Assembly (NCBI GenBank): GCA_030068145.1
Contig: JAPJBO010000033.1
Span: forward strand, 423,501 to 487,500
Direction of reading: 5' to 3'
Source: Diplonema papillatum
Lineage: Eukaryota > Euglenozoa > Diplonemea > Diplonemida > Diplonemidae
DNA length: 64,000 nucleotides
Numbering within the stretch: position 1 is the first letter of the stretch; each line of letters begins with the position of its first letter. The notes beneath the pieces were generated by a model. That model was not told where the DNA came from. It ran no database searches and saw only the letters and a list, made by a program, of their open reading frames with translations. The position numbers and the translations under genes are program-made. Positions 1 through 32,103 of the stretch are shown here, in pieces.

Positions 1-1038
1 GTCGAGCCACTATGCAGTGCTACATTGATGGGCTGTGTGGAACTCCTTACTCCCCTATCTCCGCCAATCCAGCCCATCGGCAACAAAAAGGTCAAGATCC
101 CTGCTTGGGCAAGCCTCCCTGCCGAAGCGTGTCGGGAAGTGGCAGGCATGCTCGGACCGACTGGAAGTATTCGCAACAGTCAGGTGGCCGCTTCTGCCCA
201 GGGTTCCCCGCTCCCCGCTCACGTCGCCATTGTAGAGTGTGTTTCACTGTTGTGAATTTGGCACGACACCACTCACAGTGCGTCTCTCTTGCCACCGTTT
301 CTTCTCATTTTGTAGACGCTTTTCCTCGGCAGCTGTCAATTAGCTCAACAAAAGTCTCAGGGTAAAGGGGCTCGACAGTGCGCACAGTTCCAGTTGGGTG
401 CGCGCTGCTCCTCTCATCCTTTTTCAACGGCGCGGCGGGTATATCAGGGGAGATGATTCCCATCAAGGCTCCCAAAAACCCTGCCCAACTCAGTCCGAGG
501 GGTAGTGCACATCGACCAAACCTCCCCAGTTTTCGATCTCGCAATTTTTCACGCAAACTCCCCAATAAATCACTGTTTTGGACTGAAAAACAACTGAATT
601 CACTTGTAATTCTTACTAGTGCACTTGTAAATTTTACTAGTAAAAGTGTAAAGTTTACTAGTAAATTTACTAGTAAAAGGGTCATTTTACAAGTTTACTA
701 CTGCACGGTGTTGCCGGCAAGCGTCCGCCAAAGTCTAACTGACACGTTCCCTCAGTCAACCACGGTCTCCGGTGAAATCATTTCCGGTGCGCCGGAAATG
801 ATTTCGCAACAGCATTTTCCTCGTTGGACCAACACAAGCTGCCACACCGCCAAGCCCGGTTAGCTTTGAATATATCCGTTTTCTCCTTGGAACCCCTGAA
901 ACTCCTAGGCAGTAGGGGACTGAGCTTCCCTTTGTGTATTGTTGTTGAAGAGGAAACACCTTTCCGGGGTGTTGTCCATAGCTTTCCACGTTCTACTACA
1001 AAACCACCGTTTCCCAACCAAACCCTCAAAAACTACAG
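1..1038 (+). other. Intron upstream of the gene 1 module exon (3' part)
   Basis: Non-coding. From position 1 it matches the 3' part of the next intron (about 7934-8940) almost base for base, with small indels, the largest in the AT-rich block near 600-690. It ends in a polypyrimidine-poor CAG acceptor (AG at 1037-1038) directly before the LamG half-domain. Because the intron continues off the left edge, another exon of gene 1, probably an equivalent module, should lie upstream. It contains a short AT-rich block of repeated TTACTAGTAAA motifs (about 590-690) and a perfect hairpin at 774-805. Confidence 0.75.
774..805. repeat. Perfect 14-bp-arm hairpin in gene 1 intron
   Basis: The arm GAAATCATTTCCGG is followed by a 4-nt loop and its exact reverse complement. 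The same hairpin recurs in the downstream gene 1 intron at 8676-8707. It is absent from the shorter gene 2 introns. No function can be assigned. Confidence 0.85.
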
Positions 1039-4000: not shown

Positions 4001-7000
4001 TGCCGACTGGGGTTTCACCTGCGTCCGTTTGCCGTTCTCTCTCGAGCTTGTGGACACAAACCCGCTGCTCCCCATTGGTGGGGATGAGTCGAAGTTTGCG
4101 GCGGAGCCAAGCTTCTTGGGGAAGCATGCGTTGGATGTGTTCGATGCCGTAGTGAAGACGCTGACACGCAGGGGCATCATGGTGATTTTGGAGAACCGCC
4201 TGTCGGACGCAGGGTACTGCTGCAGCAATGACAACGGGAACGGGCTGTGGTACACTGAGTCATACCCAGAAGACAGGTGGCTCTCGCTTTGGGAGGACAT
4301 GATGACCCGGTACAAAAGGAACAAGCTCGTCGTTGGCTGCGTCCTCCGCAGTGAGCTGCGCACAGCGACCGTCAACAGTGCCACCGTCGCGCCCACGTGG
4401 GGCAGTGGCAACGCGGACTCGGACTGGCGCCTCGCGGCTATCAAAGCGATCAAGCGCCTGCAGGCTGTCCGCAGCGACCTGCTGATGTTCGTTTCGGGCA
4501 TTGACGGTGGAGAGAACCTGAAGGATGTCCGTGACCACCCCATCACCACCGATGACGCTGATACGCTGGGCAACAGGGTCGTGTACGAAGCGCACAACTT
4601 CCCGTCGTCGAACATCCCGACGACCTCGTTCGAAGACTTCAGCGCGAGGCTCCTGCAGGACTTCGCGTACATCATGCTCGAAGACAACTCTGCGTTCAAT
4701 GCGCCGGTGATCCTCGGAGAGTTTGGGACTGCGCACACGGACGCGGGTCTTGACGACGTATGGTGGGAGTTCCTCTCGCGCTGGTTGTCGGAGAATCAGG
4801 TTTCGTGGTCGTGGTCGCCTCTGGTTGGGACCATGTATGGTAGCTCCGATCGGCCGTACGGCGACGAGGAGCCTAACGGCCTTTTGAACACAACGTACAC
4901 TGGTCCCGCAAGCACGAGGCTGGTCCAAGAACTCCAGGCGTTGATGGACAAGACGTACTGGATCCCGGCTGGCGCGACGCACCCCGACACGACGGTGGCG
5001 ACCCCCCTGAGCGTTGTTGGTTCGAAAGTTATTGACGCGAACGGCAAGCCCGTGAAGCTCTCGTGCGTCAACTGGCCCGGGGCCCAGGAGCATATTTTCG
5101 TGCCGTTGGGTCTTGAGTACAACACAATTGACGGCATCGTAGACCTGATGGTGGAGTGGGGGTTGAACTGCGTCCGCCTGCAGTTCTCTCTCGAGCTGGT
5201 GGACAAGAACCCGGTGCCGCTCGACCACTTGCTTGCCAAGGAGCCCAGTCTTCAAGGGAGGCCGGCACTCGAGACGTACGACGCTGTTGTTGAGAGCTTG
5301 ACAAGGAAAGGAATCATGGTGTTGTTGGACAACCACAATTCGGACGCCGCGTGGTGCTGTGGACGCACAGATGGAAACGGGATGTGGTACACCGAGACCT
5401 ACTCCGAGGATTCCTGGATCTCCCTGTGGGAAGTAATGGTGCGCCGTTTCATGGACAACGACTACGTTATCGGCTGCAGCATGCGTAACGAGCCTCGGTG
5501 GGCCACAGTCTACGGGGAATACATGAAGGTCTCGTGGGGCGACAAGAACCTCAAGACTGACTGGCGCACTGGCGCGTTGAACGCGATCAACAGACTGCAG
5601 ACCGTCGCACCGCATTTCCTCTACTCCATTCCGGGCATCGAGTACTCGAAGGACCTGAAGGATATTCGCGACCACCCGATCCTCGACACCGACGTTTTGA
5701 TTCCGCACAAGAGAATGTACGAAGCGCACTTATACGCTTGGGTTGGCACCGTCGAGTCACCGGAGTTGTTCCTGGAAGACCACACAAGACAGTGGGCGTT
5801 TGTTTTCATGGACGAAGATGCGGACTACGTCGCCCCGATTTTCGTCGGGGAGTTCGGAATGGAGCACATGAACGACAAACTTGTCGAACCCTGGTGGACA
5901 CTGTTGCACCCCTTCATGGCCAAGCACGACATTGGATGGGCGTGGTGGTCCATGTCCGCTACCATGGGTGGCAGTCCAGGTCGTCCTTATGGTGGAGAGG
6001 AAACGTACGGGCTGCCGAACACGACGTGGGATGGACCTGCCAACGAAAGGCTGATTTCCAGTCTCCAGGCACTCATGGACAAGGACTACTGGCCGGAGGT
6101 GAAGCAGATCGTTGTGCCGGACCCGCCGTTGATGCTCACCCCCGCGCCGAACGCGCCGACAACGCCGATCGTGAAACTCACCCCGACGGCTTTTTTTACG
6201 TTTGACGAGACGCTAGACGACTCGGTGAACACAAGCGACGCCGCCCGTTTCATCATGAAGTCGGTGAACGATGAGGATGGAAACCGTCTCTCGTACGACG
6301 CCTACTACAACACGGAAATCCCGGCAACCCCTTCGTACTCCACGGACGCTATATCCGGACACTCGATCTATTGCAACGGTACTGTCGGCATGCGCTTCCG
6401 GCAATTGGTCAGCTCAGACGAGTACTCCTTCGCGCTTTGGCTGAAGCCGCAGAAGAAAGATATCCACTCGCCCGCGGTGTTCTGGGGGAATGCTGACACC
6501 TGGATCAACCTGATGCCACGCTGGTGGTCGCAATACGGCATCCTCTGGAGTCGTGCCGGCTTCAACACAGTGTACGACACCCTTGTCGAAATCCCGATGA
6601 TGGAGTGGACCCATTTCGCGGTTTCCGTGAGAAAGGGGGCCGTGTCAGTAATGCTGAACGGCACGGAGGTTGTCAACGCAATCGGACAAAGAGACATTTT
6701 CACGAACGTGGAACCGAAGTCCTTGTTCACGTTGGGTCTCAACTACTGGGATCTCCCATTCACCGGGTGGTTCGATGACTTCGTGGTTTATGACACTGCG
6801 CTGACGGTGGCTGAGGTGAGGATGTCGCTTATTGAACAGCGTGGCGAGGCCGAAGTGGCCGCATTCTTGCAGTCAGACGGCAACCTGTGCCTGCGAGGCA
6901 CCGTCGGGCGGTATTTGACGGAGAAGAAGGTCCGGCCCGGGCCGCTTTTCGGACAGTCATACGCGTGGGCGTCGAGCAATGAATCGGTCTTTTCGAACAA

Positions 7001-7173
7001 CGGTCTCGCGGCCCCGCCGCAGAGCACCGCCGACCGCCTGCCGGTTGAGCTCACGCTGACGGTCCAGTTCTCGGCAAGCAACTCAATCCACGTGTTCGAA
7101 GACATGTTCGTGATCAGCAACGTGCCCGTCGCGGCGTTCACGTTCGACTGCCAGTCACTCGAGGACATGATAG
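1039..7173 (+). CDS. Gene 1, internal module exon: LamG(C-half)-4xGH5-LamG-aBig-LamG(N-half)
   Basis: This 6,135-nt exon has phase 1 at both ends: AG at 1037-1038 before it, GT at 7174-7175 after it. The open frame extends slightly into both introns. Domain order by position: second half of a LamG (concanavalin-A-like) domain about 1039-1610; GH5 (cellulase family) domains about 1627-2750, 2755-3825, 3830-4970 and 4975-6105; a full LamG about 6190-6830; an Ig-like segment resembling the atrophied bacterial Ig fold (pattern W-x-S-S-x5-S-x2-G) about 6870-7130; then the first strands of a further LamG (VAAFTFDCQSLEDMI). Only GH5 domain 4 has the NEP acid/base motif and GEFG nucleophile motif together with the conserved His residues; domains 1-3 are degenerate. 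The protein is almost identical to gene 2 exon 2, with differences seen mainly near the N-terminus. The likely role is extracellular binding and hydrolysis of a beta-glucan; the substrate is inferred only from the family. Confidence 0.88.
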
Positions 7174-7394
7174 GTCTGCCTTTTAGTTCTTTCTGCGTCT
7201 CGTAGCTTCGCACGACGGCCAAGCTAAAAGCATGAAGGCATGGCGTACCTTGGGGCTTCGGCCCACGTGCTGGGTGGGGTGCATGGCCGCAAAGCTAAGT
7301 TCGGCGAAGCAAACTGGTGCCAGTGGGTGCCGGTCAAGAAAACCCCGGAGCGAGGGAATCGGCTATAACCGAAGACGAAGGAGAACCAAAAAAA

Positions 7395-13059: not shown

Positions 13060-16000
13060 CATGAGAAGGCGAAGCAGCTGCTCACAGCGTTGCGGGAAAA
13101 GACGAGTAGGCTCGGAAGAGAAGGATCTGCGGCCAGGTTTACGAAGTACCGAGACAAGCTGAACGAGAGGGCGGACGCGAGCAGACGATGTCTAGCGACC
13201 GTCTGCGCCGGTCGCGCTGAGCCGTCGGGAATGTTGCGCACCGGAGCGAAGATGACTGCAAATGCGGACGAGATGGACGAGGTGTTGCACACTGCGTGGG
13301 ACGCTATCCTGCGTAAGTACAAGGACCGGCCAGAGCCGGAGTACGTTCCGTTTCGGGATCGGTTCCAGGAGCACATCGACACACACTTGATGGAACCCGG
13401 AACGATCACGGGGGAGGAGCTGCGGACTCTGCTAAGGAAGAAGCCGAAGAGAAGCGCGTCAGGCGTGGATGGCTGGCGCATGGCTGAACTGCGGGAGTTG
13501 CCGCTTCCCCTGCTGAATGCGCTAGCGGATGTCATGAACCTGGTCGAAGTGACTGGGGTTTGGCCGGCGAGCATGACAACTGCCCTGGTGTCGATGGTGC
13601 CGAAGGATGAGAGCCAAGACCCGCTGCACACGAGGCCAATAACCGTCACGTCCGCTGTGTACCGCCTATGGGCGTGCCGCAGGCTTGCGGACATAGTCCT
13701 GTGGCAGGAGAAGTGGATCGAAGAAGGACAGAAGGGCTTTCGACCGGGTCACCGTATCGAGGACGTCCTGATGGAGATAGGGCTCGAGATGGAGGACGCC
13801 TTGCTAGATGGAGAGCCGCTCTACGGACTTCCGGAAATGTTTCGACATGGTCCCGCGAGAGATAGTGCTGCGCCTGGCCGGGGGCCTAGGGTTGCACAAT
13901 CGGGTTCTCAAGCGCTATGGGCGATCTACAGACTGCTCGCAAGACGCTTCAAGCTGCCTATAGGGGTGGGCAGGGAGTTTAGTGTGACCCATGGTATCCT
14001 TCAAAGGGTGCCCTGTATCCGTCATCCTCATCAATGCCCTGCTGTCGGTAGTGATGAAGGCGGTCAAGAAAGAAGCGGAGGGTGTGAGCCCAAAGTCGTA
14101 CGCGGACGATGCCACGCTGCTATCCAGGCTGTCGGAGGCCGCCCTGCAAAAGGGGGTGGACGTAGTAGACGAGTTCTGCACGCTCACCGGAATGGAGCTA
14201 AACCTCCAGAAAACGGTCGCCTTCTCGACGAGACGTAGGCATCAGTCGACGCTCAGACTCCGCAGCGTGGATGCGCTGCTGCGGTTTAGCAAATCCGTCA
14301 AGTGCCTCGGGGTCCTAGTCTCGACGGCGAAGAATAGGACAGAAAGGCCCGACTCGGAGAGGGTGGAAAAGGCGGCTGCCCTGGCGGAAGGCCTCCGCCA
14401 TGCGCCGTTCCGGTACGAGAAGCGGGTCCGGATTGTACAGTCGAATGTGCTACCGGCGGCGCTGCTCTTTCGCGCCGGTGTCGAAGGTGGCAATGAAACG
14501 GCTGACGACGTCGGTGATGGGACTGATCTGGGGTGGGTCCAACCCAAAGCGCGCGAGGGAGATGGTCCTAAACTTTCAGGAGAAGGGCCACCTGAGAGAC
14601 CCCAGTACATGCCTAGGATATAGGGTGACGACGGCGTTCTACGCGGCGTGCGAGAGGTTGCCACGACTTCTGCCTCTGATGGAGAGCATCCGGGGAAGGT
14701 ACGCCGAGGGGGACCTACCCCTGGGGCCAGTTGGACTGGCGATGCGGAGCATGGAGGAGTGTGGACACGTATGGGGACCAGGGCCCCTGTCTCGCGCGCT
14801 GAGGAATGGTGCAATGTTTGACCCGATAGCTTCGACACCCTCGAAGAGGGGCATTCTCGGGTACTACCACTCCGTGTTCCAGCGTGCATCTGGGCCAGTC
14901 AGCGCGGTTGGCCGCCATCAGCTCGGCATGTGCCTCTCGTCGCAGTATGTGCGAGTACGCTCCGCAGTCTTCTCGTCCTCGATGTCGCCGCTTCCACAGT
15001 GCTTGCAGCTGGGCGCCTGCGGCTCAGCTCCGGCCTGCCTCATCCGCGACGTGAACTCAGCCGTGTTCACTCCCTCCAACGCTATACGTATAAGCCTCGC
15101 GGTGTGCGCGGGAATGCGCTGCACGAGAATGCACCGAAGGGGGTGAGGGAGCGAGGAAACGTCCTGCGCTGCATGATCAGCGCGTTGGACAAGCTGGCGA
15201 CACAGCAAGGGCTGGGGAGTTGCGAGAGAGGCGAGAGAGTATGCCCGACGACGTCGCTGTCGTTCATGGGCATCTCGGGGATATCGGGGGTGCGGCCCAG
15301 GCCCCGCTTTCGCGAGGCACACACGGGGACGATCCTCGAAGAGCAGGTGAAGGGAAGCGATGTAAGGACGCAGTGCCCGACGTACCCGGACTGGACGGCC
15401 GAGAGAGCGGCGAGGTGGGCCCTGCCTGTCCCACCACAGCTGCACCCCGACCCCGTGCATATGCCGGGTGTCGGAGTAGAGAAAGCACTCGTCACCTGCG
15501 CGACCCACCACAAGGGGAAGTGTGAGGCGTGCCGAGCACTCGTCCGAAGGGACGTGCCCACGGTAGAGATGTGCTGTCGGCACTATCACCTGGGCAGCCG
15601 ATCGCGGTGTGCGTGGAGCACAGCACGACGAAGTGCGGCGAGTGCAAGACGGCGGCGGCGTGCTGCCGCAGCGGGCATCATGCCTGCCGCACGCATGGCA
15701 GAGGAACCTGCCAAGAATGCAGGAGGCTCCCTACGTTGACGCAGAGGAGACCGGCAGCGTGCTGCCGCCGCGGCCACCACCAACCCAACGAACCGAACGC
15801 CCCGGCAACCCCCGGACACAGCAAAAAGAAGAAGAGACCCCTCTCACCCACCCAGGTGGGCGTACAACGAGAAACGCCGGCGGGAAAGCGCGCGGCGCAG
15901 GCGCCGCCCGCCGTAGCGAAGCAGAAGACGGCGACGACCGGACGGGCAGCCAAGAGGCCGCCACCAACGCCAGGGACCGGCGAACGACCAGCGTTGAAAA

Positions 16001-16302
16001 AGAGGGTGCTCGGCACCCCGAAGGAGAGCCCGATCGCCGGCCGCAAGCGGAAGAAGGCGAAGGCGACCACACCCGAGTCAGGGGTGCAACGAAGAAAGAG
16101 GAAGGCCCTTAAAGCAAACAGCTACCAGAAACGTTCGACGTCCCCAAGCACTCCAGTGCCCTCGAGAGTGAAAAACGTGCAAGATTGTCCGCACCTGTGC
16201 CCCTCCACGCAATCTCCAGAACCGCAAGAAAGCCCAGCGCCCCTGGCGCCACAAGTACTCGACCTTGACGACGCAGTGACAGGTGACGACGTCATAAAGT
16301 AA
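13060..16302 (+). pseudogene. Reverse transcriptase pseudogene of LINE copy A
   Basis: The first open stretch (13060 to about 13830) has the RT finger region with the pattern KRSASGVDGWRMAELREL, then MVPK and GFRPGHRIEDVL. The palm follows in shifted frames: a CFDMVP motif, then GCPVSVILIN, then the catalytic YADD box (about 14099). At least two small frameshifts lie near 13830 and 14010, and more follow after 14480. The zinc-binding C-x2-C...H...C segment is present only in inverted form, and another small deletion at about 15585 precedes the Cys/His repeats. The Lys/Pro-rich tail and stop (16300-16302) are intact. It cannot make a functional protein. Confidence 0.85.
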
Positions 16303-16370
16303 CCTTAAGCGGTGACACAGTGCATGCTAATCCATGTGGTTCATGTACTTAAAAGAACTCAATGCTTAAC
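16303..16370 (+). other. 3' UTR of LINE copy A
   Basis: These 68 nt are shared with copy B (21767-21833) and copy C (23995-24062). They contain GCTAATCCATGTGGTTCATG and end in TTAAAAGAACTCAATGCTTAAC without poly(A). This is probably the region recognised by the element's reverse transcriptase. Confidence 0.75.
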
Positions 16371-16575
16371 ATGGATGAGAGTCAAGACCCGCTGCACACA
16401 AGACCGATAACCGTCACATCCGCCGTGTACCGCTTATGGGCCTGCCGCAGGCGGTACTGTGGCAAGAGGAGTGGATCGAAGAAGGACAGAAAGGCTTTCG
16501 ACCGGGTCACCGGATCGAGGACGTCTTGATGGAAATTGGGCTCGAGATGGAGGACGCCTTGTTAGACGGGGGAGG

Positions 16576-16950
16576 ACGAGGCTGATCGTTGTGTCGCAGC
16601 AGCCGCCGCCAGCCACAGTAGTGTCGAGGATGGGCCGCGACCCTATCTTCGTACGCCCGATGGCAAGGGGGGACGAACCGCGCGGCGGGGCGAAGGCGAA
16701 CGTGTGGGAGGGGCGAATCCCCAGGGCCTCGCTGCCTAAGCAGGCAGTCAAAAGCGACGCGCCGATGGACCCGAAGGAAGGCCACATACACGTGTGGCAG
16801 GAGCCGGAGCGGAACAAGGGCACGCAGGAATGCGAAGAGTGCGAATCACCCCGGCAGAACGGGACGATGATGCGCACATGCTTCTGCGCTGCCCGCATCT
16901 GTGGTACGTGCTACACGGCCGCAAGCAAGAAAGTGCAGGAAGTCCGGTGA
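16576..16950 (+). pseudogene. Cys-rich N-terminal segment of LINE copy B
   Basis: An open stretch ends at a TGA at 16948-16950. Its C-terminal part has three cysteine pairs: C-x2-C (ECEEC), C-x-C (CFC) and C-x2-C (CGTC), which could bind zinc. It lies directly upstream of the AlkB/2A/endonuclease frame and may be the first open frame of the element or the N-terminus of the same protein after a frameshift. Its left boundary is a chimeric junction with an RT fragment. Confidence 0.5.
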
Positions 16951-16953
16951 CTC

Positions 16954-18990
16954 GTGAACTCGACGCTGGTGTCACATGGGGCTGGTGAAGGCCAGCTCCA
17001 TGTTGACTTCGAGGCGGTCTGCTGGACCAGCCACGACCTCTCCGGTGCCCCTGCAACCGCGCCACCTGACGCGTCACTTAACCACCACGACCCGAAGACC
17101 TCGGAACCAGCCGTCGCCTGCCTGGCGCCACTGCGATCTGCCCTGCCCTCGTTCGGGCTGCCGAGTCCTAGCACCCCTGCCAGGCAGTTCGATCACGCAG
17201 AGACGGAAAAAGAGAATTCCTGCTCCTCTTCTTTTCCCCTCCCTCTCTCTCACGGCGCGCCTGGCCTCAATCGCCCGGGAGCGATACCCCGAGGGACCGG
17301 TTTTGCGCACAAACAATCCCCCTACAATAGCCAGTGTGCCCGGCCAACTTGCAACGAGGGCCCCCCCGCCAGGGTGGAGGGACCCATCCCGGGGCTAAGT
17401 TTCCAGGCGATCCCTCGGGATCTTCTGGATAGACTGAGCCGAGCACCCGAGCTCAACCCGGAAGCCCAATGGGGAAGGCTGGGGGGTGGACGCAGCAGGG
17501 AAACCCAGCAGTGGGGGCACGCCTATCGACTAGGTGAACCCCCGATCAGACTGGAACGGGATATCCCCGAGGGGCCCCTGAAAGAAGCGGCGGATCTCAT
17601 ACGTGACCGCCTTGGGTGGGAACCGGACCAGTTGCTGGCCAACTGGTACCGGAGGGGAGTGGGGATCAACCCCCACAAAGACCAGAGAGAACTGGGTCCG
17701 AGGGTAGCGACCATATCGCTCTTGAGCGACACGGTCATGGAATGGGAGAGGGGGAGCCGGAAAGTGAGAACCCCTCTGCCGGTCGGCACACTGTGCCACA
17801 TGGAAGGCGAGGCCAGGAACCTGTGGACACACGGGATTCGTCCCGATGATGTCGCACGCGACCGGGTCTCGCTGACCTACAGGGCCGTGCGCGAGGCCGC
17901 CTCCCAAAGTTTGCAAGGCCGGGACACCCCGCAAGAAACTCCCATACCCCCCCCGCCCAGCCCTCAGGCATCCACTGCACCCCCCCAACATCAGTCCAGC
18001 CCCGCGCCACGGACACTTTTGCTTCATCACCAAAGAACTCTACAATCAATCAAAGAATCAGCAAGACAGCGGCTGATAACCGCGGGGGACGTCGAACAAA
18101 ACCCTGGTCCCGGCCGCGCGGAGATGAGGTTCGCGACGTTAAACGTAACCAACCTACTACAGTATCTCCCAGCGGCCGACGCGGTGGAAGCGGATCTTCT
18201 CTGCTGCCAGGAGGTGACACTCCTTCCGTGCAAACGGGTGCAGGCGGAGGAATACCTGCGGAAATGGTGCTGCCACTGGGGTCTGCCACCACCCGGAAGA
18301 CTCTGTAGGAACTCCGGTAGTCGCTCGACGATGAACGCCGCGAACGGAGGGCTCTCCACTCTAGTACTGAGACCGATACCGGCGTACGATACGATGACGG
18401 CGCTCTCGCACGCAGCAATACGGTCCCCGGACCGAGTGAGCCATACGGTAGTAGCAACAGGGGCCGGCAACACGTTCGTGCACGTGTTCAATGTCTACTG
18501 CCCTTCCGGAAACGGGAGGGCGGAGAGCGAGGAGCGTGAGGACATGCTGGAGAAGATCCTCTTCGCAGCGGCGGATAGCCTCGGTGACGTCCCCATAATG
18601 GTGATGGGTGACCTGAACACAGAAGAAGACCGGTCCCCTGTACTGCGGAAGGCACTAAGGAATGGGTGGTCCGACGCAGCGGAACTGCACCATGCGCGTA
18701 CCGGTGACACACCACCACCACCGACCTTTACTAGCGCCCGGACATCGGGCACGAGGATCGACCGCATACTCCTCAACCGAATAACGACGGGAGCTTTCCG
18801 CCAATGCGTCACCACCGCGGTGAACGTGCCGGGACACCGGCTCGTGACAATGACCCTGGACATTGCGGCGCTGCGCCAAATCGTGTGGCGATTTAAAGTA
18901 CCGCGGGAAATCTCTACGGAGGGGGGACCCAAGTGGTGCCTCTCGGACACAGAAGCTTACAGGGAAGCCGTACAGAGACTGGCCAACTCC
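16954..18990 (+). CDS. LINE copy B: AlkB-like dioxygenase, 2A peptide, EEP endonuclease
   Basis: Numbering is from the frame's first possible start at 16954; the true start is unknown. Residues 1-140 are Pro/Ser-rich. Residues about 145-313 form an AlkB-like Fe(II)/2-oxoglutarate dioxygenase: the HxD iron motif is H241-K-D243, the distal iron His is H293 in WTHGI, and the 2-oxoglutarate pair is R304-x5-R310 in RVSLTYR. Residues 375-387 (ITAGDVEQNPGPG) are a full 2A ribosome-skipping motif, with separation expected between G385 and P386. Residues about 391-640 are an exonuclease/endonuclease/phosphatase domain with LNVTN, QE, YCPSG, GDLN, RIDRIL and GHRLV in order. After about residue 679 the frame is shifted by a deletion into the RT. 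In other LINEs 2A separates an accessory protein from the EN-RT protein; here the accessory would be the AlkB-like enzyme. Confidence 0.85.
18076..18114 (+). other. 2A ribosome-skipping peptide
   Basis: Encodes ITAGDVEQNPGPG, which satisfies the D-[VI]-E-x-N-P-G-P consensus in full. It sits between the AlkB-like domain and the endonuclease with only a few residues before the first endonuclease strand. The preceding segment (QRTLQSIKESARQRL) is basic and probably helical, as is usual upstream of 2A motifs. Confidence 0.9.
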
Positions 18991-21766
18991 GATCCTTCAA
19001 GGGTGCCCTGTATCCGTCATACTCATCAATGCCCTGCTGTCGGTAGTGATGAAAGCGGTCAAGAAAGAAGCGGAGGGTGTGAGTCCAAAGTCATACGCGG
19101 ACGACGCCACACTGCTGTCCAGGCTGTCGGAGGCCGCCCTGCACAAGGGAGTGGACGTAGTAGACGAGTTCTGCACACTCACCGGTATGGAGCTAAACCT
19201 CCAGAAGACGGTCGCGTTCTCGACGAGACGTAGGCATCAGTCGACTCTCAAACTCCGCAGCGTGGATGCGCTGCTGCGGTTTAGCAAATCCGTCAAGTGC
19301 CTCGGGGTCCTAGTCTCGACGGCGAAGAATAGGACGGAAAGGTCCGACTCGGAGAGGGTGGAGAAGGCGGCTGCCCTGGCGGAAGGCCTCCGCCATGCGC
19401 CGTTCCGGTACGAAAAGCGGGTCCGGATTGTGCAGTCGAATGTGCTACCGGCGGCGCTGTCAGGCTGCTCTTTCGCGCCGGTATCGAAGGTGGCGATGAA
19501 ACGGCTGACGACGTCGGTGATGGGACTGATCTGGGGTGGATCCAACCCGAAGCGCGCGAGGGAGATGGTCCTAAACTTTCAGGAGAAGGGCCACCTGACG
19601 GATCCCGGTACATGCCTAGCATATAGGGTGACGACAGCGTTTTACGCGGCGTGCGAGAGGTTGCCACGACTGCTGCCTCTGATGGAGAGCATCCGGGGAA
19701 GATACGCCGAGGGGGACCTACCCCTGGGGCCAGTTGGACTGGCGATGAGGAGCATGGAGGAGTGTGGACACGTATGGGGACCCGGGCCCCTGTCTCGCAC
19801 GCTGAGGAATGGTGCAACATTTGACCCGTTAGCCTCGGCACCTTCGAAGAGGGGACATGAAGTTAGGGCGGACTTGAGGGCGAAGACGTGGTCCCGACTG
19901 GTGGCGAGGCGGCCGGGATTTGAGGGCATACAGAGAGCCGACCTGGAGCGGACGAACACCTTCTGGAGGATGCGTGAATGTCCCGCGCACACCGCGAGGC
20001 TTATACGTGTAGCGTTGGCGGGGGGGGTGAACACGGCTGAGTACACGTCGCGGATGAGGCAGGCCGGAGCTGAGCCGCAGGCGCCCAGCTGCAAGCACTG
20101 TGGAAGCGGCGACACCGAGGACGAGAAACACGTATTCTGGGACTGCGGAGCGTACTCGCACATACGGCGACGAGAGGCACATGCCGAGCTGATGGCAGCC
20201 AACCGGGCCGACTGGCCCAGATGCACGCTGGAACACGGAGTGGTAGTACCCGAGAATGCCCAATTCTCGAGGCGGCTCCAGGAGATGTTGGCTGAAATCC
20301 TTGCGGAACGGGCTGGGCTCGAAGCACGTGGCTGGGTGGCCAGGAACCCCACGACCCCCTGGTCGAGAGCGAATGCGATGCCTGCCGAGAAATTTGACCA
20401 CCCCTTCGCGCGGATTGCCCCGGCATGGACGTGGGAGCGGAACAAGACCTGGGGACTACCGACGTTTTATGCGTTGGTAGCGTGGCTGTCGGACATGCAA
20501 TGGACCGAGAACGGGCAGGCGTCAATGCTGGAGCTTGCGATCGACTTTGAACTCTTCTCGGGCCTCAGCATGCCGCTGCACGGGAATGCGCCGAAGGGGG
20601 TGAGAGAACGGGGAAACGTCCTGCGCTGCATGATGAGCGCGTTGGACAAGCTGGCGGCACAGCAAGGGCTGGGAAGCTGCATGAGAGGAGAGAGGGTGTG
20701 CCCGACGACGTCGCTGTCGTTCATGGGCATCACGGGGATATCGGGTATACGGCCCAGGCCACGCTTTCGCGAGGCACACACGGGGACGATACTTGAGGAA
20801 CAAGTGAAAGGAAGCGATGTAGGGACGCAGTGCCCGGCGTACCCTGACTGGGCGATCGGGAGAGCGGCGAGGTGGGCCCTGCCTGCCCCACCACAACTGC
20901 ACCCAGACCCCGTGCATATGCCGGGTGTCGATATAGAGAAGGCACTCGTCACGTGCGCGACCCATCACAAAGGGAAGTGTGAGGCGTGCAGAGCACTCGT
21001 CCGAAGGGACGTTCCCACGGTAGAGATGTGCTGCCGGCACCATCACCACGCGAACGATGGGCAGCCGATCGCGGTGTGCACAGAGCACAGCACGACGAAG
21101 TGCGGCGAGTGCAAGACGGCGGCGGCGTGTTGCCGCAGCGGGCATCATGCCTGCCGCACGCATGGCAGAGGAACCTGCCAAGAGTGCAAGAGGCTCCCTA
21201 CGCTGACGCAGAGGCGACCGGCGGCATGTTGCCGCCGCGGCCACCACCAGTCCAACGAACCGAACGTCCCGTCAACCCCCGGACGCAACAAGAAGAAGAG
21301 GCCCTCCTCACCCACCCAGGTGGGCGTACAACGGGGAACGCCAGTAGGAAAGCGAGCGGCGCAAGCGCCGCCCGCGGCAACGAAAAAGGAGACGGCGACG
21401 ACCGGACGGGCGACCAAGAGGCCGCCACCAACGCCAGGAACCAGCGAACGACCAGCGCTGAAGAAGAGGGTGCTAGGCACCCCGAAGGAAGGCCCGATCG
21501 CCGGCCGCAAGCGGAAGAAGACGAAGGCGACCACCCCCGACTCAGGGGTGCATCGAAGGAAGAAGAAGGTTCCGAGGGCAAGCAGCTCTCAGAAACGACC
21601 GGGGACCACGGGCACGCCAATGCCCTCGAAAGTGAAAAACGGGCACACGAGCCCGCCCTCGTATTCGCCGACTCAGTCTCTGGAATCACAAGAAAGCCAA
21701 ACCCCGCTAGCTCCACAAATGCTCGACCTTGACGACGCAATGGCAGGTGACGACGTCATCCGATAA
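18991..21766 (+). CDS. LINE copy B: RT C-half, zinc knuckle, Cys/His repeat domain
   Basis: The useful frame starts at about 18991 just after the deletion junction. Order: RT motif ILQGCPVSVILIN, catalytic YADD box (about 19098), thumb region, then a zinc-binding C-x2-C...H-x4-C segment (CKHCGSGDTEDEKHVFWDC) of the type found after LINE reverse transcriptases. A Trp-rich conserved region follows (WGLPTFYALVAWLSD). Next come three Cys/His repeats with C-x2-H, C-x2-C and CCRxxHH elements (about 20950-21250), and finally a long Lys/Pro/Thr-rich basic tail. The stop is at 21764-21766. RT motifs before the GCP box are deleted, so this copy is inactive although its C-half frame is open. Confidence 0.85.
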
Positions 21767-21833
21767 CCTGACTTTCAAGGCAGTGCATGCTAATCCATGT
21801 GGTTCGTGTACTTAAAAGAACTCAATGCTTAAC
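21767..21833 (+). other. 3' UTR of LINE copy B
   Basis: Sixty-seven nt with the same ending CAATGCTTAAC as copies A and C. Copy C begins directly after it. Confidence 0.75.
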
Positions 21834-23994
21834 CGGTACATGCCTAGCATATAGGGTGACGACGGCGTTCTACGCGGCGTGCGAGAGGTTGCCACGACTT
21901 CTGCCTCTGATGGAGAGCATCCGGGGAAGGTACGCCGAGGGGGACCTACCCCTGGGGCCAGTTGGGCTGGCGATGAGGAGCATGGAGGAGTGTGGACACG
22001 TATGGGGACCAGGGCCCCTGTCTCGCACGATGAGGAATGGTACAATGTTTGACCCGATAGCCTCGACACCCTCGAAGAGGGGGCATGAGGTGAGGGCGGA
22101 TTTGAGGGCGAAGACGTGGTCCCGTCTAGTAGCAAGGCGGCCGGGATTCGAGGGTGTGCAGAGGGCTGACCTGGAGCGGACGAACTCCTTCTGGAAGATG
22201 CGAGAATGTCCCGCGCACACCGCGAGGCTTATACGTGTAGCGTTGGCGGGAGGAGTGAACACGGCTGAGTTCACGTCGCGGATGAGGCAGGCCGGAGCTG
22301 AGCCGCAGGCGCCCAGCTGCAAGCACTGTGGAAGCGGCGATACCGAGGACGAGAAACACGTATTTTGGGACTGCGGAGCGTACTCGCACATACGGCGACG
22401 AGAGGCACATGCCGGGCTGATGGCGGCCAACCGCGCCGACTGGCCCAGATGCACGCTGGAACACGGAGTGGTAGTACCCGAGAATGCCCACTTCTCAAGG
22501 CGGCTCCAGGAGATGATGGCTGAAATCCTAGCGGAACGGGCAGGGCTCGAAGCACGAGGCTGGGTAGCCAGGAACCCCACGACCCCCTGGTCGAGAGCGG
22601 ATGCGATGCCTGCCAAGAAGCTCGACCACCCCTTTGCGCGGATTGCCCCGGCATGGGCGTGGGAGCGGAACAAGGCCTGGGGACTACCGACGTTTTATGC
22701 GTTGGTGGCGTGGCTATCAGACATGGAGTGGACCGAGAACGGGCAGGCGTCAATGCTAGAGCTTGCCATCGACTTTGAACTCTTTTCAGGCCTCAGCATA
22801 CCGCTGCACGAGAATACACCGAAGGGGGTGAGGGAGCGAGGAAACGTCCTGCGCTGCATGATCAGCGCTTTGGACAAGCTGGCGACACAGCAAGGGCTGG
22901 GGAGTTGCGAGAGAGGCGAGAGAGTATGCCCGACGACGTCGCTGTCGTTCATGGGCATCACGGGGATATCGGGGGTGCGGCCCAGGCCCCGCTTTCGCGA
23001 GGCACACACGGGGACGATCCTCGAAGAGCAGGTGAAGGGAAGCGATATAGGGACGCAGTGCCCGACGTACCCGGACTGGACGGCCGAGAGAGCGGCGAGG
23101 TGGGCCCTGCCTGTCCCACCACAGCTGCACCCCGACCCCGTACATATGCCGGGTGTCGGAGTAGAGAAAGCACTCGTCACCTGCGCGACCCACCACAAGG
23201 GGAAGTGTGAGGCGTGCCGAGCACTCGTCCGAAGGGACGTACCCACGGTAGAGATGTGCTGTCGGCACCATCACCACGCTGACGATGGGCAGCCGATCGC
23301 CGTGTGCGTGGAGCACAGCACGACGAAGTGCGGCGAGTGCAAGACGGCGGCGGCGTGCTGCCGCAGCGGGCATCATGCCTGCCGCACGCATGGCAGAGGA
23401 ACCTGCCAAGAATGCAGGAGGCTCCCTACGTTGACGCAGAGGAGACCGGCAGCGTGCTGCCGCCGCGGCCACCACCAACCAAACGAACCTAACGCCCCGG
23501 CAACCCCCGGACACAGCAAAAAGAAGAGACCCCTCTCACCCACCCAGGGGGGCGTACAACGTGAAACGCCGGCGGGAAAGCGCGCGGCGCAGGCGCCGCC
23601 CGCCGTAGCGAAGCAGAAGACGGCGACGACCGGACGGGCAGCCAAGAGGCCGCCACCAACGCCAGGCACCGGCGAACGACCAGCGTTGAAAAAGAGGGTG
23701 CTCGGCACCCCGAAGGAGAGCCCGATCGCCGGCCGCAAGCGGAAGAAGGCGAAGGCGACCACACCCGAGTCAGGGGTGCAACGAAGGAAGAGGATGGCCC
23801 TTAAAGCAAACAGCTACCAGAAACGTTCGACGTCCCCAAGCACTCCAGTGCCCTCGAGAGTGAAAAACGTGCAAGATTGTCCGCACCTGTGCCCCTCCAC
23901 GCAATCTCCAGAACCGCAAGAAAGCCCAGCGCCCCTGGCGCCACAAGTACTCGACCTTGACGACGCAATGACAGGTGACGACGTCATAAAGTAA
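21834..23994 (+). CDS. LINE copy C: thumb, zinc knuckle and Cys/His domain (5'-truncated)
   Basis: About 719 codons of uninterrupted frame cover the end of the thumb, the C-x2-C...H...C knuckle (about 22318), the Trp-rich region, the three Cys/His repeats (about 23180-23480) and the basic tail. Stop at 23992-23994. The frame is open from 21787 because the copy B 3' UTR happens to lack stops there, but those first codons are not protein of the element. No RT catalytic motif is present, so the copy cannot transpose on its own. Confidence 0.8.
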
Positions 23995-24062
23995 CCTTAA
24001 GCGGCGACACAGTGCATGCTAATCCATGTGGTTCATGTACTTAAAAGAACTCAATGCTTAAC
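23995..24062 (+). other. 3' UTR of LINE copy C
   Basis: Same 68-nt terminal sequence as copy A. To the right is unrelated DNA, so this is the right edge of the LINE array. Confidence 0.75.
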
Positions 24063-24269
24063 AGTCCTCACGTGGGCGGTGTCTTCTGACAGCACCTCGT
24101 GATGTTCGCATCACAAAACAAAGAAGACAGTGAAATGGTCGTTGCGGTTCGCTCGCCCGTTTCCTGAACAATCGTTCACTGAACCCGCGGTTAAATAACC
24201 TGGCCTCAGTGGTGCAAGCACCACGCGCTCTTCAAACCCAAGAAACATTTTCGCCCCCTATATCATACA
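24063..24269. other. Spacer between LINE array and hAT element
   Basis: About 200 nt with no recognisable gene or repeat. Confidence 0.5.
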
Positions 24270-25582: not shown

Positions 25583-26067
25583 CGTATGCTATATATAAGA
25601 CACGATTGTAGGGGCCTTCTCCCCGTGACGGATTCGCCTGTGCTCTAGTAGCACGGGTGGTCCTGACTGTGACGAGCTACGAACAGCCGCCTGACAAACC
25701 AGACTCACCCCGCAGTCCCGTCTGCAGACACTCAGGTTCCGCGCTGCTGATGGTCCGCCTATGTGTATGTGTGGCTTAAAGGACGAAACACGGCGCAGAC
25801 GGGACCAGTGCGGTGTTGAGCACATATCCATTCCAAGCACGTTCTTGCAATCCCCCCTATGTGTAATATTGTTTTATTGCCAAGCGCGAAAAGCCTGGTT
25901 GTAAAAAAAAAACGGTATAAATTCATGCCAATCCATGCGGTATCACATTAACCTATTACCGTATTGGTTCGCAGAAAGGTGCTTGAGATGCATGCCAGTA
26001 AGTCCCACCGTGCACCGCAGGTAGCCCCCTTTCTCGTATTTGGCGCGAAAGAAACAAGAACAACGCG
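25583..26067 (+). promoter_or_regulatory. 5' flank of gene 2, putative promoter region
   Basis: A TATATAAG string lies at about 25590-25599 and a TATAAA string at 25916-25921, 147 nt upstream of the ATG. The second sits just after a repeat CCAAGCGCGAAAAGCCTGGTTGT + A-run that recurs at 41868, so it may be chance within a repeat. No other gene is visible. Confidence 0.25.
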
Positions 26068-29000
26068 ATGCTGCGGCTGTGCTCACTCGCTGCGCTGGCA
26101 GCCGTGAGCGTCGCGGTGGATGCGCCGACGCACCCGCGCTCCACCGTGTCGCTCCCGTTGAGCACGAATGGCGGCAAGATTGTCGACACGAACGGGGCCA
26201 ATGTGAAGCTGTCCTGTGTGACGTGGCCTGGTGGTGAGGATTGGCTCATGGTGCCCCGAGGGCTTGAGTACAACATTATCGACCGAATCATCATTTTGGT
26301 CGGTGACATGGGCTTCAACTGTGTTCGTTTGCCCTTCTCTCTCGAGCTCGTCGACACGAAGCCGGTGCTCCCAGTTGACGGTGACGAGTCGAAGCTGGCT
26401 TGGGAGAAACGGTTCATAGGTGGGAGCGCTATGGACGTGTTCGACGCTGTTGTGCGGGCGCTGACACGGAGGGGCATCTTGGTGATTTTGGAGAACCTCG
26501 CATCGGCCGCTGGCGAAGAAGGCGGGCTGTGGTACACTGACGCATACCCAGAAGAGAAGTGGATCTCGCTTTGGGAAGAGGTCGTGACTCGGTACGCGCG
26601 TATTCCGGGTGTCATTGGCTGCGGCCTTCGCGGTGGGCTGAGCACAGGGATCATCAACAGTGCCAACGTCGAGCCCACGTGGGGCAGTGGCAACGCGGAC
26701 TCGGACTGGCGCCTCGCAGCGATCAAAGCGATCGGCCGTCTGCAGGCTATCCGCGCCGACCTGCTGATGTTCGTTTCGGGCATTGACGGTGGCGAGAACC
26801 TGAAGGATGTCCGTGACCACCTTATAAGCAACGGCGACCTCATGGTGGGCAACAAGGTTGTCTACGAAGCATTCAACTTCCCGTCGTCGAACACCCCGAC
26901 GACCTCGTTCGAAGACTTCAGCGCTCGGCTCCTGGAGGACTGGGCGTACATCATGCTCACTGACAACTCTGCGCCGGTGTTCCTCGGAGCGTTTGGGGCT
27001 TCGCACACGGATGCGGGTCTTGACAGCCTCTACTGGCAGTTCCTCTCGCGTTGGTTGTCGGAGAACGAGGTTTCGTGGTCGTGGTCTCATCTGGCTGGCA
27101 CGTACAACGGGCGGAACACGAGCCTCATGCCTTACGGAAGTGAGGACCCTACCGGCCTTTTGAACATGACCTACACAGGCCCTGCGGAACCTAGACTGGT
27201 CCAAGAACTCCAGGCGTTGATGGACAAGACGTACTGGGTCAAGCTGCTTCCGACGCACCCGCGGACGAAAGTTACCTTGCCGTTGAGCACTGAAGGGACA
27301 AAGATTGTAGATGCAAATGGCGACACTGTGAAGCTCTCTTGCGTCACCTGGCCAGGTGCTGAGGGGGCCGAGTTTACCCCGGAGGGGCTGAATTCCAACT
27401 CGATCGACAACATTGTTGCGATGGTTGTCGACTGGGGCTTCAACTGCGTCCGTTTGCCGTTCTCTCTCCAGTCTGTGGAAACAAACCCTCCGATCGCTGA
27501 CTTGCTCTTCGAGCCGGGTTTGAAGGGGACAAATGCGTCGAACGCGACGGACGCAGTTATCGACTCGCTGACGCAGAAGGGGCTCATGGTTATCTTGCAG
27601 AACCAGGACGACGAGAGTGGGGCGTGGTATGATGATTCATACGACGAGGAGGCGTGGATTTCGCTTTGGGAGGAAATGCTCACTCGATACGCCAATGAGA
27701 AGCTCGTCATTGGCTGCGGCCTTCGCAACTCGCTGAGCGCAGCGACTGTGAACGGCATCGCTGTCAATCCGGAGTGGGGCACTGGCGACGAAGCGAATGA
27801 CTGGCGCCTCGCAGCCATCAAAGCGATCGACCGCCTGCACAAAATCCGCAGTGACGTACTGATGTTTGTCTCTGGAATCGAAGGCGCCGTGAACCTGAAG
27901 GGCGTCCGGGACCACCCCATCAGCAACAGTGACGTTTGGATTAACAACAAAGTTGTCTACGAAGCGCACGACCTCGCGACGTCGAGCGCCTCGTTCGAAG
28001 ACTTCAGCGCTCGGTTCCTGGAGGACTGGGCATTCATCATGCTCGAAGACAACTCTACGTTCAATGCGCCGGTGTTCCTCGGAGAGTTTGGGATCACGCA
28101 CTCGGACGCGGGTCTTGGCACAGTTTGGTGGCAGTTCATCTCGCGTTGGTTGTCTGAGCACGAGGAGGTTTCGTGGTCGTATTCATCTTTGCCCGGCACC
28201 TTGAACGGGAATGAGAACCCAGAGGGCCTCCTCAACGTGGCCTACAGCGGGCCTGCAAGTCGGAGGCAGATTCGCGACCTCCAGGCGATCATGCCCAAGA
28301 CCTACTGGGCTCCGATCCAACAGGGACACGCCCTCATGAAAGCAGCGGTGCCGTTGAGAACTGAGGGAGTGCAGATCGTAGACGCGAACGGCAAGAAGGT
28401 GACGCTGTCGTGCGCCAGCTGGCCGGGTGCCGAGAAGAGCCTGATGACGCCGCAGGGGCTCGAGTACAACACCATCGCCGGCATCGCCAAAATAGTTGCC
28501 GACTGGGGTTTCACCTGCGTCCGTTTGCCGTTCTCTCTCGAGCTTGTGGACACAAACCCGCTGCTCCCCATTGGTGGGGATGAGTCGAAGTTTGCGGCGG
28601 AGCCAAGCTTCTTGGGGAAGCATGCGTTGGATGTGTTCGATGCCGTAGTGAAGACGCTGACACGCAGGGGCATCATGGTGATTTTGGAGAACCGCCTGTC
28701 GGACGCAGGGTACTGCTGCAGCAATGACAACGGGAACGGGCTGTGGTACACTGAGTCATACCCAGAAGACAGGTGGCTCTCGCTTTGGGAGGACATGATG
28801 ACCCGGTACAAAAGGAACAAGCTCGTCGTTGGCTGCGTCCTCCGCAGTGAGCTGCGCACAGCGACCGTCAACAGTGCCACCGTCGCGCCCACGTGGGGCA
28901 GTGGCAACGCGGACTCGGACTGGCGCCTCGCGGCTATCAAAGCGATCAAGCGCCTGCAGGCTGTCCGCAGCGACCTGCTGATGTTCGTTTCGGGCATTGA

Positions 29001-31669
29001 CGGTGGAGAGAACCTGAAGGATGTCCGTGACCACCCCATCACCACCGATGACGCTGATACGCTGGGCAACAGGGTCGTGTACGAAGCGCACAACTTCCCG
29101 TCGTCGAACATCCCGACGACCTCGTTCGAAGACTTCAGCGCGAGGCTCCTGCAGGACTTCGCGTACATCATGCTCGAAGACAACTCTGCGTTCAATGCGC
29201 CGGTGATCCTCGGAGAGTTTGGGACTGCGCACACGGACGCGGGTCTTGACGACGTATGGTGGGAGTTCCTCTCGCGCTGGTTGTCGGAGAATCAGGTTTC
29301 GTGGTCGTGGTCGCCTCTGGTTGGGACCATGTATGGTAGCTCCGATCGGCCGTACGGCGACGAGGAGCCTAACGGCCTTTTGAACACAACGTACACTGGT
29401 CCCGCAAGCACGAGGCTGGTCCAAGAACTCCAGGCGTTGATGGACAAGACGTACTGGATCCCGGCTGGCGCGACGCACCCCGACACGACGGTGGCGACCC
29501 CCCTGAGCGTTGTTGGTTCGAAAGTTATTGACGCGAACGGCAAGCCCGTGAAGCTCTCGTGCGTCAACTGGCCCGGGGCCCAGGAGCATATTTTCGTGCC
29601 GTTGGGTCTTGAGTACAACACAATTGACGGCATCGTAGACCTGATGGTGGAGTGGGGGTTGAACTGCGTCCGCCTGCAGTTCTCTCTCGAGCTGGTGGAC
29701 AAGAACCCGGTGCCGCTCGACCACTTGCTTGCCAAGGAGCCCAGTCTTCAAGGGAGGCCGGCACTCGAGACGTACGACGCTGTTGTTGAGAGCTTGACAA
29801 GGAAAGGAATCATGGTGTTGTTGGACAACCACAATTCGGACGCCGCGTGGTGCTGTGGACGCACAGATGGAAACGGGATGTGGTACACCGAGACCTACTC
29901 CGAGGATTCCTGGATCTCCCTGTGGGAAGTAATGGTGCGCCGTTTCATGGACAACGACTACGTTATCGGCTGCAGCATGCGTAACGAGCCTCGGTGGGCC
30001 ACAGTCTACGGGGAATACATGAAGGTCTCGTGGGGCGACAAGAACCTCAAGACTGACTGGCGCACTGGCGCGTTGAACGCGATCAACAGACTGCAGACCG
30101 TCGCACCGCATTTCCTCTACTCCATTCCGGGCATCGAGTACTCGAAGGACCTGAAGGATATTCGCGACCACCCGATCCTCGACACCGACGTTTTGATTCC
30201 GCACAAGAGAATGTACGAAGCGCACTTATACGCTTGGGTTGGCACCGTCGAGTCACCGGAGTTGTTCCTGGAAGACCACACAAGACAGTGGGCGTTTGTT
30301 TTCATGGACGAAGATGCGGACTACGTCGCCCCGATTTTCGTCGGGGAGTTCGGAATGGAGCACATGAACGACAAACTTGTCGAACCCTGGTGGACACTGT
30401 TGCACCCCTTCATGGCCAAGCACGACATTGGATGGGCGTGGTGGTCCATGTCCGCTACCATGGGTGGCAGTCCAGGTCGTCCTTATGGTGGAGAGGAAAC
30501 GTACGGGCTGCCGAACACGACGTGGGATGGACCTGCCAACGAAAGGCTGATTTCCAGTCTCCAGGCACTCATGGACAAGGACTACTGGCCGGAGGTGAAG
30601 CAGATCGTTGTGCCGGACCCGCCGTTGATGCTCACCCCCGCGCCGAACGCGCCGACAACGCCGATCGTGAAACTCACCCCGACGGCTTTTTTTACGTTTG
30701 ACGAGACGCTAGACGACTCGGTGAACACAAGCGACGCCGCCCGTTTCATCATGAAGTCGGTGAACGATGAGGATGGAAACCGTCTCTCGTACGACGCCTA
30801 CTACAACACGGAAATCCCGGCAACCCCTTCGTACTCCACGGACGCTATATCCGGACACTCGATCTATTGCAACGGTACTGTCGGCATGCGCTTCCGGCAA
30901 TTGGTCAGCTCAGACGAGTACTCCTTCGCGCTTTGGCTGAAGCCGCAGAAGAAAGATATCCACTCGCCCGCGGTGTTCTGGGGGAATGCTGACACCTGGA
31001 TCAACCTGATGCCACGCTGGTGGTCGCAATACGGCATCCTCTGGAGTCGTGCCGGCTTCAACACAGTGTACGACACCCTTGTCGAAATCCCGATGATGGA
31101 GTGGACCCATTTCGCGGTTTCCGTGAGAAAGGGGGCCGTGTCAGTAATGCTGAACGGCACGGAGGTTGTCAACGCAATCGGACAAAGAGACATTTTCACG
31201 AACGTGGAACCGAAGTCCTTGTTCACGTTGGGTCTCAACTACTGGGATCTCCCATTCACCGGGTGGTTCGATGACTTCGTGGTTTATGACACTGCGCTGA
31301 CGGTGGCTGAGGTGAGGATGTCGCTTATTGAACAGCGTGGCGAGGCCGAAGTGGCCGCATTCTTGCAGTCAGACGGCAACCTGTGCCTGCGAGGCACCGT
31401 CGGGCGGTATTTGACGGAGAAGAAGGTCCGGCCCGGGCCGCTTTTCGGACAGTCATACGCGTGGGCGTCGAGCAATGAATCGGTCTTTTCGAACAACGGT
31501 CTCGCGGCCCCGCCGCAGAGCACCGCCGACCGCCTGCCGGTTGAGCTCACGCTGACGGTCCAGTTCTCGGCAAGCAACTCAATCCACGTGTTCGAAGACA
31601 TGTTCGTGATCAGCAACGTGCCCGTCGCGGCGTTCACGTTCGACTGCCAGTCACTCGAGGACATGATAG
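26068..31669 (+). CDS. Gene 2 exon 1: signal peptide-4xGH5-LamG-aBig-LamG(N-half)
   Basis: First exon of a three-exon gene: join 26068-31669, 32104-38238, 38676-39325. Exon lengths 5602 + 6135 + 650 sum to 12,387 nt, or 4,128 codons plus stop. Residues 1 to about 18 (MLRLCSLAALAAVSVAVDA) form a classic signal peptide. GH5 domains lie at about 18-391, 396-750, 752-1131 and 1135-1511, LamG at 1539-1755, an aBig-like Ig domain at about 1768-1850, then the start of a LamG cut by the intron. In domain 4 the acid/base is E1307 (RNEP) and the nucleophile E1427 (GEFG), with His in LDNHN and YEAH. Domain 1 has RGGL and GAFG (A308) instead. Domain 2 loses the acid/base Glu. Domain 3 has RSEL and loses His. 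Compared with module exons the N-terminal LamG half is replaced by the signal peptide, and one visible change is DHP to DHL near 26822. Confidence 0.92.
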
Positions 31670-32103
31670 GTCTGCCTTTTAGTTCTTTCTGCGTCTCGTA
31701 GCTTCGCACGACGGCCAAGCTAAAATCATCACGGGAGATTGCTTGTGGATGCAAAGCTCGACGACATCCATGAGCCGGTCCACCCCCCCTAGACCGTGAT
31801 GGACCGAAGAATACAGCATCGGGCAATTGATGCAGCTCTAGGGACTAGGGATGGACCTGATAGACCGTGGTGGACCGTGATTCACTGTGATAAACAGCGG
31901 CAGGCACTTCGATGCAGTTTCAAGAGATAGGGACGGACCGGCTCAATCCAATGACTCCTTGCTGGGGAGAGCGAGAGGCCACGTCGTCCCACTGCCGGAT
32001 TGTCTGCTGACTAGGTGCCGAAACACCTTTCCGCGTGTTGTCCATAGCTTTCCACGTTCAACTACAAAACCACCATTTCCCAACCAAACCTCAAAAACCA
32101 CAG
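31670..32103 (+). other. Gene 2 intron 1 (434 nt, GT-AG)
   Basis: Phase 1. Nearly identical to intron 2 (38239-38675). It contains several degenerate repeats of a GGACCGTGAT motif (about 31790-31885). The open frame running through part of it has no coding meaning. Confidence 0.85.

Follow-up and report, generated by a model that had tools for sequence, protein, structure and literature searches.

Can a LINE carry an AlkB-type dioxygenase of its own, in one frame with its endonuclease? The question is raised by a locus of Diplonema papillatum, on contig JAPJBO010000033.1, within the 64,000-nucleotide stretch of DNA that we analysed (the window). Here a single stop-to-stop open frame of 760 aa (16951-19233) encodes an AlkB-type dioxygenase, an exact 2A motif and an AP-type endonuclease. 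At the window's base composition, 678 open codons are expected by chance at ~3e-9. The parts of this LINE copy and its neighbours are as follows, where L031 (of full-length type), L032 and L033 are other copies of the family, L035 and L036 are copies of two sister families and P0015 is a database relative.

13060..16370, + strand: rearranged relative from this LINE family, truncated at its 5' end and with its 3' end at 16370
16373..16569, + strand: separate RT fragment, also from this LINE family, immediately 5' of the window copy
16570..16947, + strand: C-terminal part of ORF1, Cys-rich, ending ...CFCAARICGTCYTAASKKVQEVR, 5'-truncated here; same frame as ORF2; matches L031 from nt 941
16948..16950, + strand: in-frame UGA stop, then CUC, separating ORF1 and ORF2; UGA-CUA/CUC in 32/34 family loci and also in L035 and L036
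16951..17382, + strand: N-terminal spacer of ORF2, without an ATG; first 63 aa also in the sister copy L035
17383..17910, + strand: AlkB-type 2OG-Fe(II) dioxygenase domain (PF13532; ALKBH8 match); residues kept in 34/34 loci
17674-17682, 17830, 17863 and 17881, + strand: AlkB residues (HxD, H, R and R, in that order)
17911..18039, + strand: Pro-rich linker, open in the AlkB/endonuclease frame
18040..18111, + strand: 2A region LQSIKESARQRLITAGDVEQNPGP; 2A motif in 34/34 loci
18112..18912, + strand: AP-type (EEP) endonuclease (PF03372), aligned with five relatives
18992..21763, + strand: remaining RT and Cys/His-rich C-terminal part, out of frame (PF00078); corresponds to P0015 642-1568 and to L031 from nt 4673
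21764..21833, + strand: 3' end of the window copy; L031-L033 extend ~72 nt more before their flanks diverge
21834..24063, + strand: another copy from this LINE family, again truncated at its 5' end, 3' of the window copy

The window copy is a damaged member of a high-copy family: it is 5'-truncated and part of its RT is deleted. The deletion lies at about 18992, where 1.32 kb is missing by comparison with L031 (441 aa by comparison with P0015). Because ~1.32 kb was lost, the RT is out of frame and is found in a different frame at 18863-21766 (PF00078). The first in-frame ATG of the window copy comes at residue 263 (numbering from 16951), past the HxD motif. The 9-mer AAAGAACTC occurs at 18032, just 5' of the 2A region, and again at 16352, 21815 and 24044, in the 3' tails of three LINE copies.

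The original prediction claimed AlkB residues, a full 2A motif and an EEP endonuclease in one frame, and profile and motif searches recovered all three. The AlkB domain matches PF13532 over residues 214-310 (E 1.4e-12, 48.7 bits, cut-off 31.2). The predicted residues H241, D243, H293, R304 and R310 fit when counted from 16954, and the same pattern lies one residue further on when counted from 16951. By sequence, the closest solved structure to the AlkB part is human ALKBH8 (E 3e-7); an AlphaFold model of this part has several strands at an only moderate pLDDT of 60.5. The loose AlkB spacing pattern is unspecific alone, with 10 occurrences in the window compared with a mean of 2.1 in simulations.

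The HxD...H and Rx5R pattern is also present in five database proteins: P0005, P0006, P0008, P0017 and P0018. Over the AlkB core, P0017 is the closer one (92/95 identities), and the other four are diverged (77/95). The AlkB residues thus persist across AlkB types with differences at 18/95 core positions. P0005, P0006, P0008 and P0018, all models named D. papillatum, carry this related AlkB without a 2A or an endonuclease. A weak OTU match follows AlkB in P0018 (E 0.0005, below cut-off), and zinc-finger-like stretches can be seen by eye after its AlkB. The tails of P0018 and P0008 presumably resemble RT and restriction-like endonuclease parts; Pfam found nothing in either tail, and a search of the PDB found nothing for that of P0018. 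As to other sources of AlkB, there were no confirmed relatives in viral_contigs (query AlkB-2A-endonuclease), genome_contigs, phages, PHROGs or PADLOC.

All six frames of the window together contain a single 2A motif, D[VI]ExNPGP (here GDVEQNPGP), and 0/60 first-order Markov simulations produced one. Behind it, PF03372 matches residues 400-609 of the frame (E 3.1e-9, 37.3 bits, cut-off 24.5); sequence search of the PDB gave no match for this endonuclease. The database protein P0009 has both PF03372 and PF00078 and matches LINE-1 ORF2p (E 1e-20). The EEP endonuclease and RT share one ORF in P0009 and in L031-L034, where 2A and the RT motif YADD are also present. No RNase H family was found by Pfam (E<=0.5) in P0009, P0012, P0013, P0014, P0015 or P0016, and Rfam gave no match of any kind in the window or at 17880-18330, so that no HDV-like ribozyme was seen there.

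Does AlkB belong to the family, or to this copy? Database proteins gave no hint of a family trait. Of the 17 relatives (P0002-P0018), 16 carry the name D. papillatum. Among the 17, in which AlkB was scored by pattern and domains by Pfam, 12 have an endonuclease or RT, five have AlkB, and none (0/17) has both. The omission of AlkB from gene models such as that of P0009 has a simple cause: they start at an internal Met just behind 2A, because no AUG precedes AlkB. A chance join of AlkB to the window copy, considered in view of the 0/17 relatives and of the differing upstream part of P0002, was overturned by searching the genome.

That search used window positions 16954-18900 as query against the assembly (271 Mb, 2910 contigs), and scoring covered the best 68 of 1975 candidates. 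The query contains AlkB, so the count is a lower bound for copies with AlkB and is silent on copies without it. The matches fell into 70 rows at 68 places, spread over many contigs (two places split into two rows), and all of these, the best 68 of 1975, span the AlkB core through 2A by query range. Four of the 68 scored places have one stop within the match. Counted by eye, 34 of the 68 have stop-free open frames of 1981-2046 aa; C137, which has a stop, is excluded from this count.

We read 34 loci, corresponding to 31 distinct places (L031, L032 and L033 repeat L011, L008 and L026). In all 34, the five AlkB residues are intact and so is the 2A motif. ORF2 is 2046, 2046, 2007 and 2007 aa long in L031 to L034, and all four have YADD. 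L031, L032 and L033 share a common 3' end and then differ in their 3' flanks; they are therefore separate insertions. Two subfamilies can be told apart, A (2046 aa) and B (2007 aa). Their ORF2 is common from about residue 66, with 98.9% identity over 6.1 kb, and their 5' regions differ. Dispersed, 5'-truncated copies are present in the window, and the scored places extend this genome-wide (68, the best of 1975).

That the AlkB-LINE join is a rearrangement of one copy, a nested insertion or a mistake of the assembly has next to no probability left: 0/17 protein relatives combine the two domains and the window copy is itself rearranged, but the same junction stands at 68 places on many contigs (best 68 of 1975) and L031-L033 differ in their 3' flanks, so that the idea is already refuted by the genome search unless the whole assembly is wrong. 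The original prediction had suggested looking for full-length members, and frames of about 2000 codons with the order AlkB-2A-endonuclease were found in many copies. It had also named two findings that would speak against it, AlkB as an accident of this copy and family-wide loss of the Fe-binding residues. Neither was found: with the AlkB-containing query, 68 scored places (the best of 1975) span the AlkB core through 2A, and 34/34 loci read retain the Fe/2OG residues. Judged by these frames, this is an AP-endonuclease LINE family, and the order ORF1 - UGA - spacer - AlkB - 2A - AP endonuclease - RT is common to many of its copies.

How, then, would AlkB be translated? There is no in-frame ATG before the HxD motif in 33/34 loci; the exception, L019, has one within its own differing upstream sequence. 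Upstream lies ORF1, Cys-rich at its end and in the frame of ORF2, with open stretches up to 498 aa in the loci read. A single stop separates the two: UGA-CUA in 17 loci and UGA-CUC in 15, together 32/34 loci or 29/31 places. The other two loci, L019 and L020, have other stop contexts (judged by the residues following). ORF1 is homologous throughout, with 53% identity between subfamily A and L036 and 35% between A and B, and UGA-CUA/CUC is kept despite this identity of 35-53%. Subfamilies A and B differ strongly in their 5' regions, and both have an unbroken frame from the UGA onward. One database model, P0016 (1817 aa), unites an ORF1-like N-terminus (32% to L035, E 2e-18) with an endonuclease-RT, and has no NPGP by pattern.

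UGA-CUA is a leaky readthrough context. We infer that a single UGA followed by CU, kept in the same frame and with no AUG ahead of AlkB, is the expected trace of programmed readthrough. A spliced upstream exon that gives AlkB an AUG was considered as well, but ORF1 in the frame of ORF2 makes splicing unnecessary rather than impossible. The main alternative to readthrough is termination-reinitiation, which is documented in the LINEs SART1 and L1 (PMC5972666); stop-codon readthrough in a LINE had no case among the literature matches listed, as far as these sources were covered.

Our preferred explanation, to which we assign a probability of roughly 0.6, is that this is a high-copy LINE family whose ORF2 encodes AlkB-2A-endonuclease-RT, that ribosomes would reach this ORF by UGA readthrough, and that 2A would then separate ORF1-AlkB from endonuclease-RT. 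Both readthrough and 2A skipping are predicted here from motif and context. On this explanation most ribosomes would terminate after ORF1, and some would pass the UGA and then translate AlkB. At 2A, ORF1-AlkB would be released and the ribosome would continue into endonuclease-RT. AlkB would thereby stay attached to the ORF1 protein, which presumably binds RNA, and so be held near the element's own RNA. There it could strip off methyl groups (m6A, m1A, alkylation damage) that serve as marks on the RNA or stand in the way of reverse transcription. AlkB itself would have been gained between the ORF2 start and 2A, after divergence from sister families.

The last of these steps can be compared with two sister families, from each of which we read one copy, L035 (P0003 type) and L036 (66% family). 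Both have the same plan: ORF1, UGA-CUC or UGA-CUA, a same-frame ORF2 spacer of 158 or 105 aa, 2A and endonuclease. In these two copies, one per sister family, AlkB is absent between the stop and 2A. AlkB was probably inserted in this family, since a gain is simpler than two losses when neither sister copy has it. Its absence from both also means that AlkB is dispensable for that LINE type.

Is the AlkB reading frame maintained by selection? The original prediction proposed a test for purifying selection, and none is visible on AlkB among these copies. Variants among copies are 9 nonsynonymous : 2 synonymous in AlkB, which is near the neutral expectation at small counts. They are 3 : 4 in the 2A-endonuclease block (2/34 loci, L009 and L012, dropped as out of register) and 38 : 70 with 4 stop variants in the stretch after the endonuclease (8/33 loci dropped). 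The spacer before AlkB has 7 : 15, partly due to L019's own join. Between subfamilies A and B, again with small counts, the nonsynonymous : synonymous numbers are 6:2 in AlkB, 1:3 in the endonuclease and 1:5 after it. An RT-C-terminal block of four copies (A vs B, 147 nonsynonymous : 61 synonymous) was apparently out of register and is unused. In none of the 34 loci, most of them best-scoring ones, does a variant place a stop in AlkB. The AlkB frame and catalytic residues are thus intact, but purifying selection is not visible in this young family, at small counts.

These numbers bear on a second explanation, which we consider unlikely though well short of negligible: AlkB may be a passenger, recently captured between the ORF2 start and 2A, rarely or never translated, and open because the family is young. 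In that case ribosomes would start endonuclease-RT at the AUG that closely follows 2A, or would reinitiate once ORF1 has been translated. An AUG does lie 4 codons downstream of NPGP, where the P0009 gene model begins, and from it endonuclease-RT could arise without ORF1 or AlkB. The neutral-looking substitution ratio of AlkB suits a passenger, as do the 33/34 loci without an AUG before the AlkB core, the lack of AlkB in both sister copies read and the SART1 and L1 precedent for termination-reinitiation (PMC5972666). It is harder to square with the lack of AlkB stop variants and the five residues kept in 34 loci (mostly best-scoring; 4/68 places have a stop), or with the continuity of the frame from UGA to AlkB in two subfamilies with different 5' regions. 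The 2A would, moreover, serve no purpose without translation upstream of it.

A third explanation concerns the 2A boundary itself. P0002 (DIPPA_26192) is identical to the window's 2A-endonuclease over 250/250 aa from LQSIKES, and is unrelated upstream, where an OTU-like segment takes the place of AlkB (PF02338, E 0.0027, below cut-off). At the other end of the element, the ORF1 of subfamily A is 100% identical to that of L035 over 302 aa, while the endonucleases are ~61% alike (P0003 vs window). It follows that 5' regions have been exchanged between LINE families. The 2A boundary might therefore be a swap point, at which N-terminal cassettes (AlkB, OTU-like, none) and ORF1 5' regions pass between LINE families, for example by RT template jumping. 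On this reasoning an inserted cassette would be tolerable there, because readthrough precedes it and 2A follows. The P0002 boundary, the L035 ORF1 in subfamily A and the ORF2 that A and B have in common from about residue 66, without a common 5' region, all fit. Against it, the OTU junction of P0002, known from a protein model, may be a spliced gene model, and there is just one example per cassette exchange. We regard the swap point as possible rather than probable; it is compatible with readthrough and 2A separation in an AlkB-carrying LINE, and not exclusive of them.

Readthrough, 2A separation and cassette exchange can be combined into a bolder proposal, which we offer tentatively and would not bet on. 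The element would be a one-frame LINE that yields up to three products by UGA readthrough and 2A skipping. Between the two signals would lie a slot for an exchangeable enzyme, occupied by AlkB in this family, by an OTU-type protease in a sister copy and by nothing elsewhere. Here AlkB would clear methyl marks or lesions from the element's RNA ahead of reverse transcription.

The design invites comparison with the L1Tc/ingi elements of trypanosomes, which like Diplonema belong to the Euglenozoa. Both types have an AP-type endonuclease and an RT, and the 2A of L1Tc adjoins its endonuclease. We know of no AlkB in L1Tc/ingi. In the Diplonema family, unlike L1Tc/ingi, ORF1 and an in-frame UGA precede. 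Within the window, Rfam showed no HDV-like (Pr77) ribozyme. An active 2A has been reported for L1Tc (PMC4748587). L1Tc also has an RNase H (PMC4748587), whereas none was found by Pfam in P0009. Internal 2A sequences are likewise present in animal non-LTR retrotransposons, of sea urchin and others, for which the available text of the report mentions no AlkB (PMC4981915).

Other replicating elements have acquired AlkB. Ty3/Gypsy elements of Phalaenopsis orchids encode an AlkB-type demethylase, and the purified protein is reported to be active on RNA in vitro (PMC9289625). These are LTR retrotransposons with AlkB on a separate ORF and, in the available part of that report, no mention of a 2A (PMC9289625); the Diplonema element is a LINE. 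AlkB domains are also carried by plant RNA viruses of the Alphaflexiviridae, Betaflexiviridae and Closteroviridae (as cited in PMC9289625). They too sit on an RNA-based replicon, but these are viruses, not LINEs.

Was the combination new, as the original prediction supposed? No earlier LINE case turned up in the literature searched. For AlkB with non-LTR, LINE, RT or retroelement, the orchid Ty3/Gypsy element was the only case recognised among the matches listed, by titles and abstract starts; PMC2714080 deals with virus-derived grapevine sequences and PMC11294593 with a host alkB2. For 2A with non-LTR elements, there was no AlkB case among the matches listed, a coverage outside which the central 2A-LINE papers lie. 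The D. papillatum genome paper reports a dozen AlkB homologues and about 2500 retroelement gene models, and in the text available the two are not connected (PMC10161547). Within the literature searched, and to the extent that its text was available, no LINE before this one carries an AlkB-type dioxygenase of its own.

Together with the orchid Gypsy elements, the Diplonema LINE suggests that retroelements have captured RNA demethylases more than once, and independently. It is therefore testable whether host RNA methylation restrains retrotransposition. Gene replacement has been reported in D. papillatum, so the organism is transformable (PMC10161547). The same-frame UGA before AlkB and the 2A behind it suggest, moreover, a route by which LINEs could gain accessory domains with endonuclease-RT unharmed.

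The window holds repeats of other kinds. Positions 59140-62346 are a tandem array of ~20 near-identical units of 153 bp. Three long, near-identical frames containing internal repeats lie at 924-7205, 26002-31701 and 31881-38270; these may be cellulase-like, from their look.
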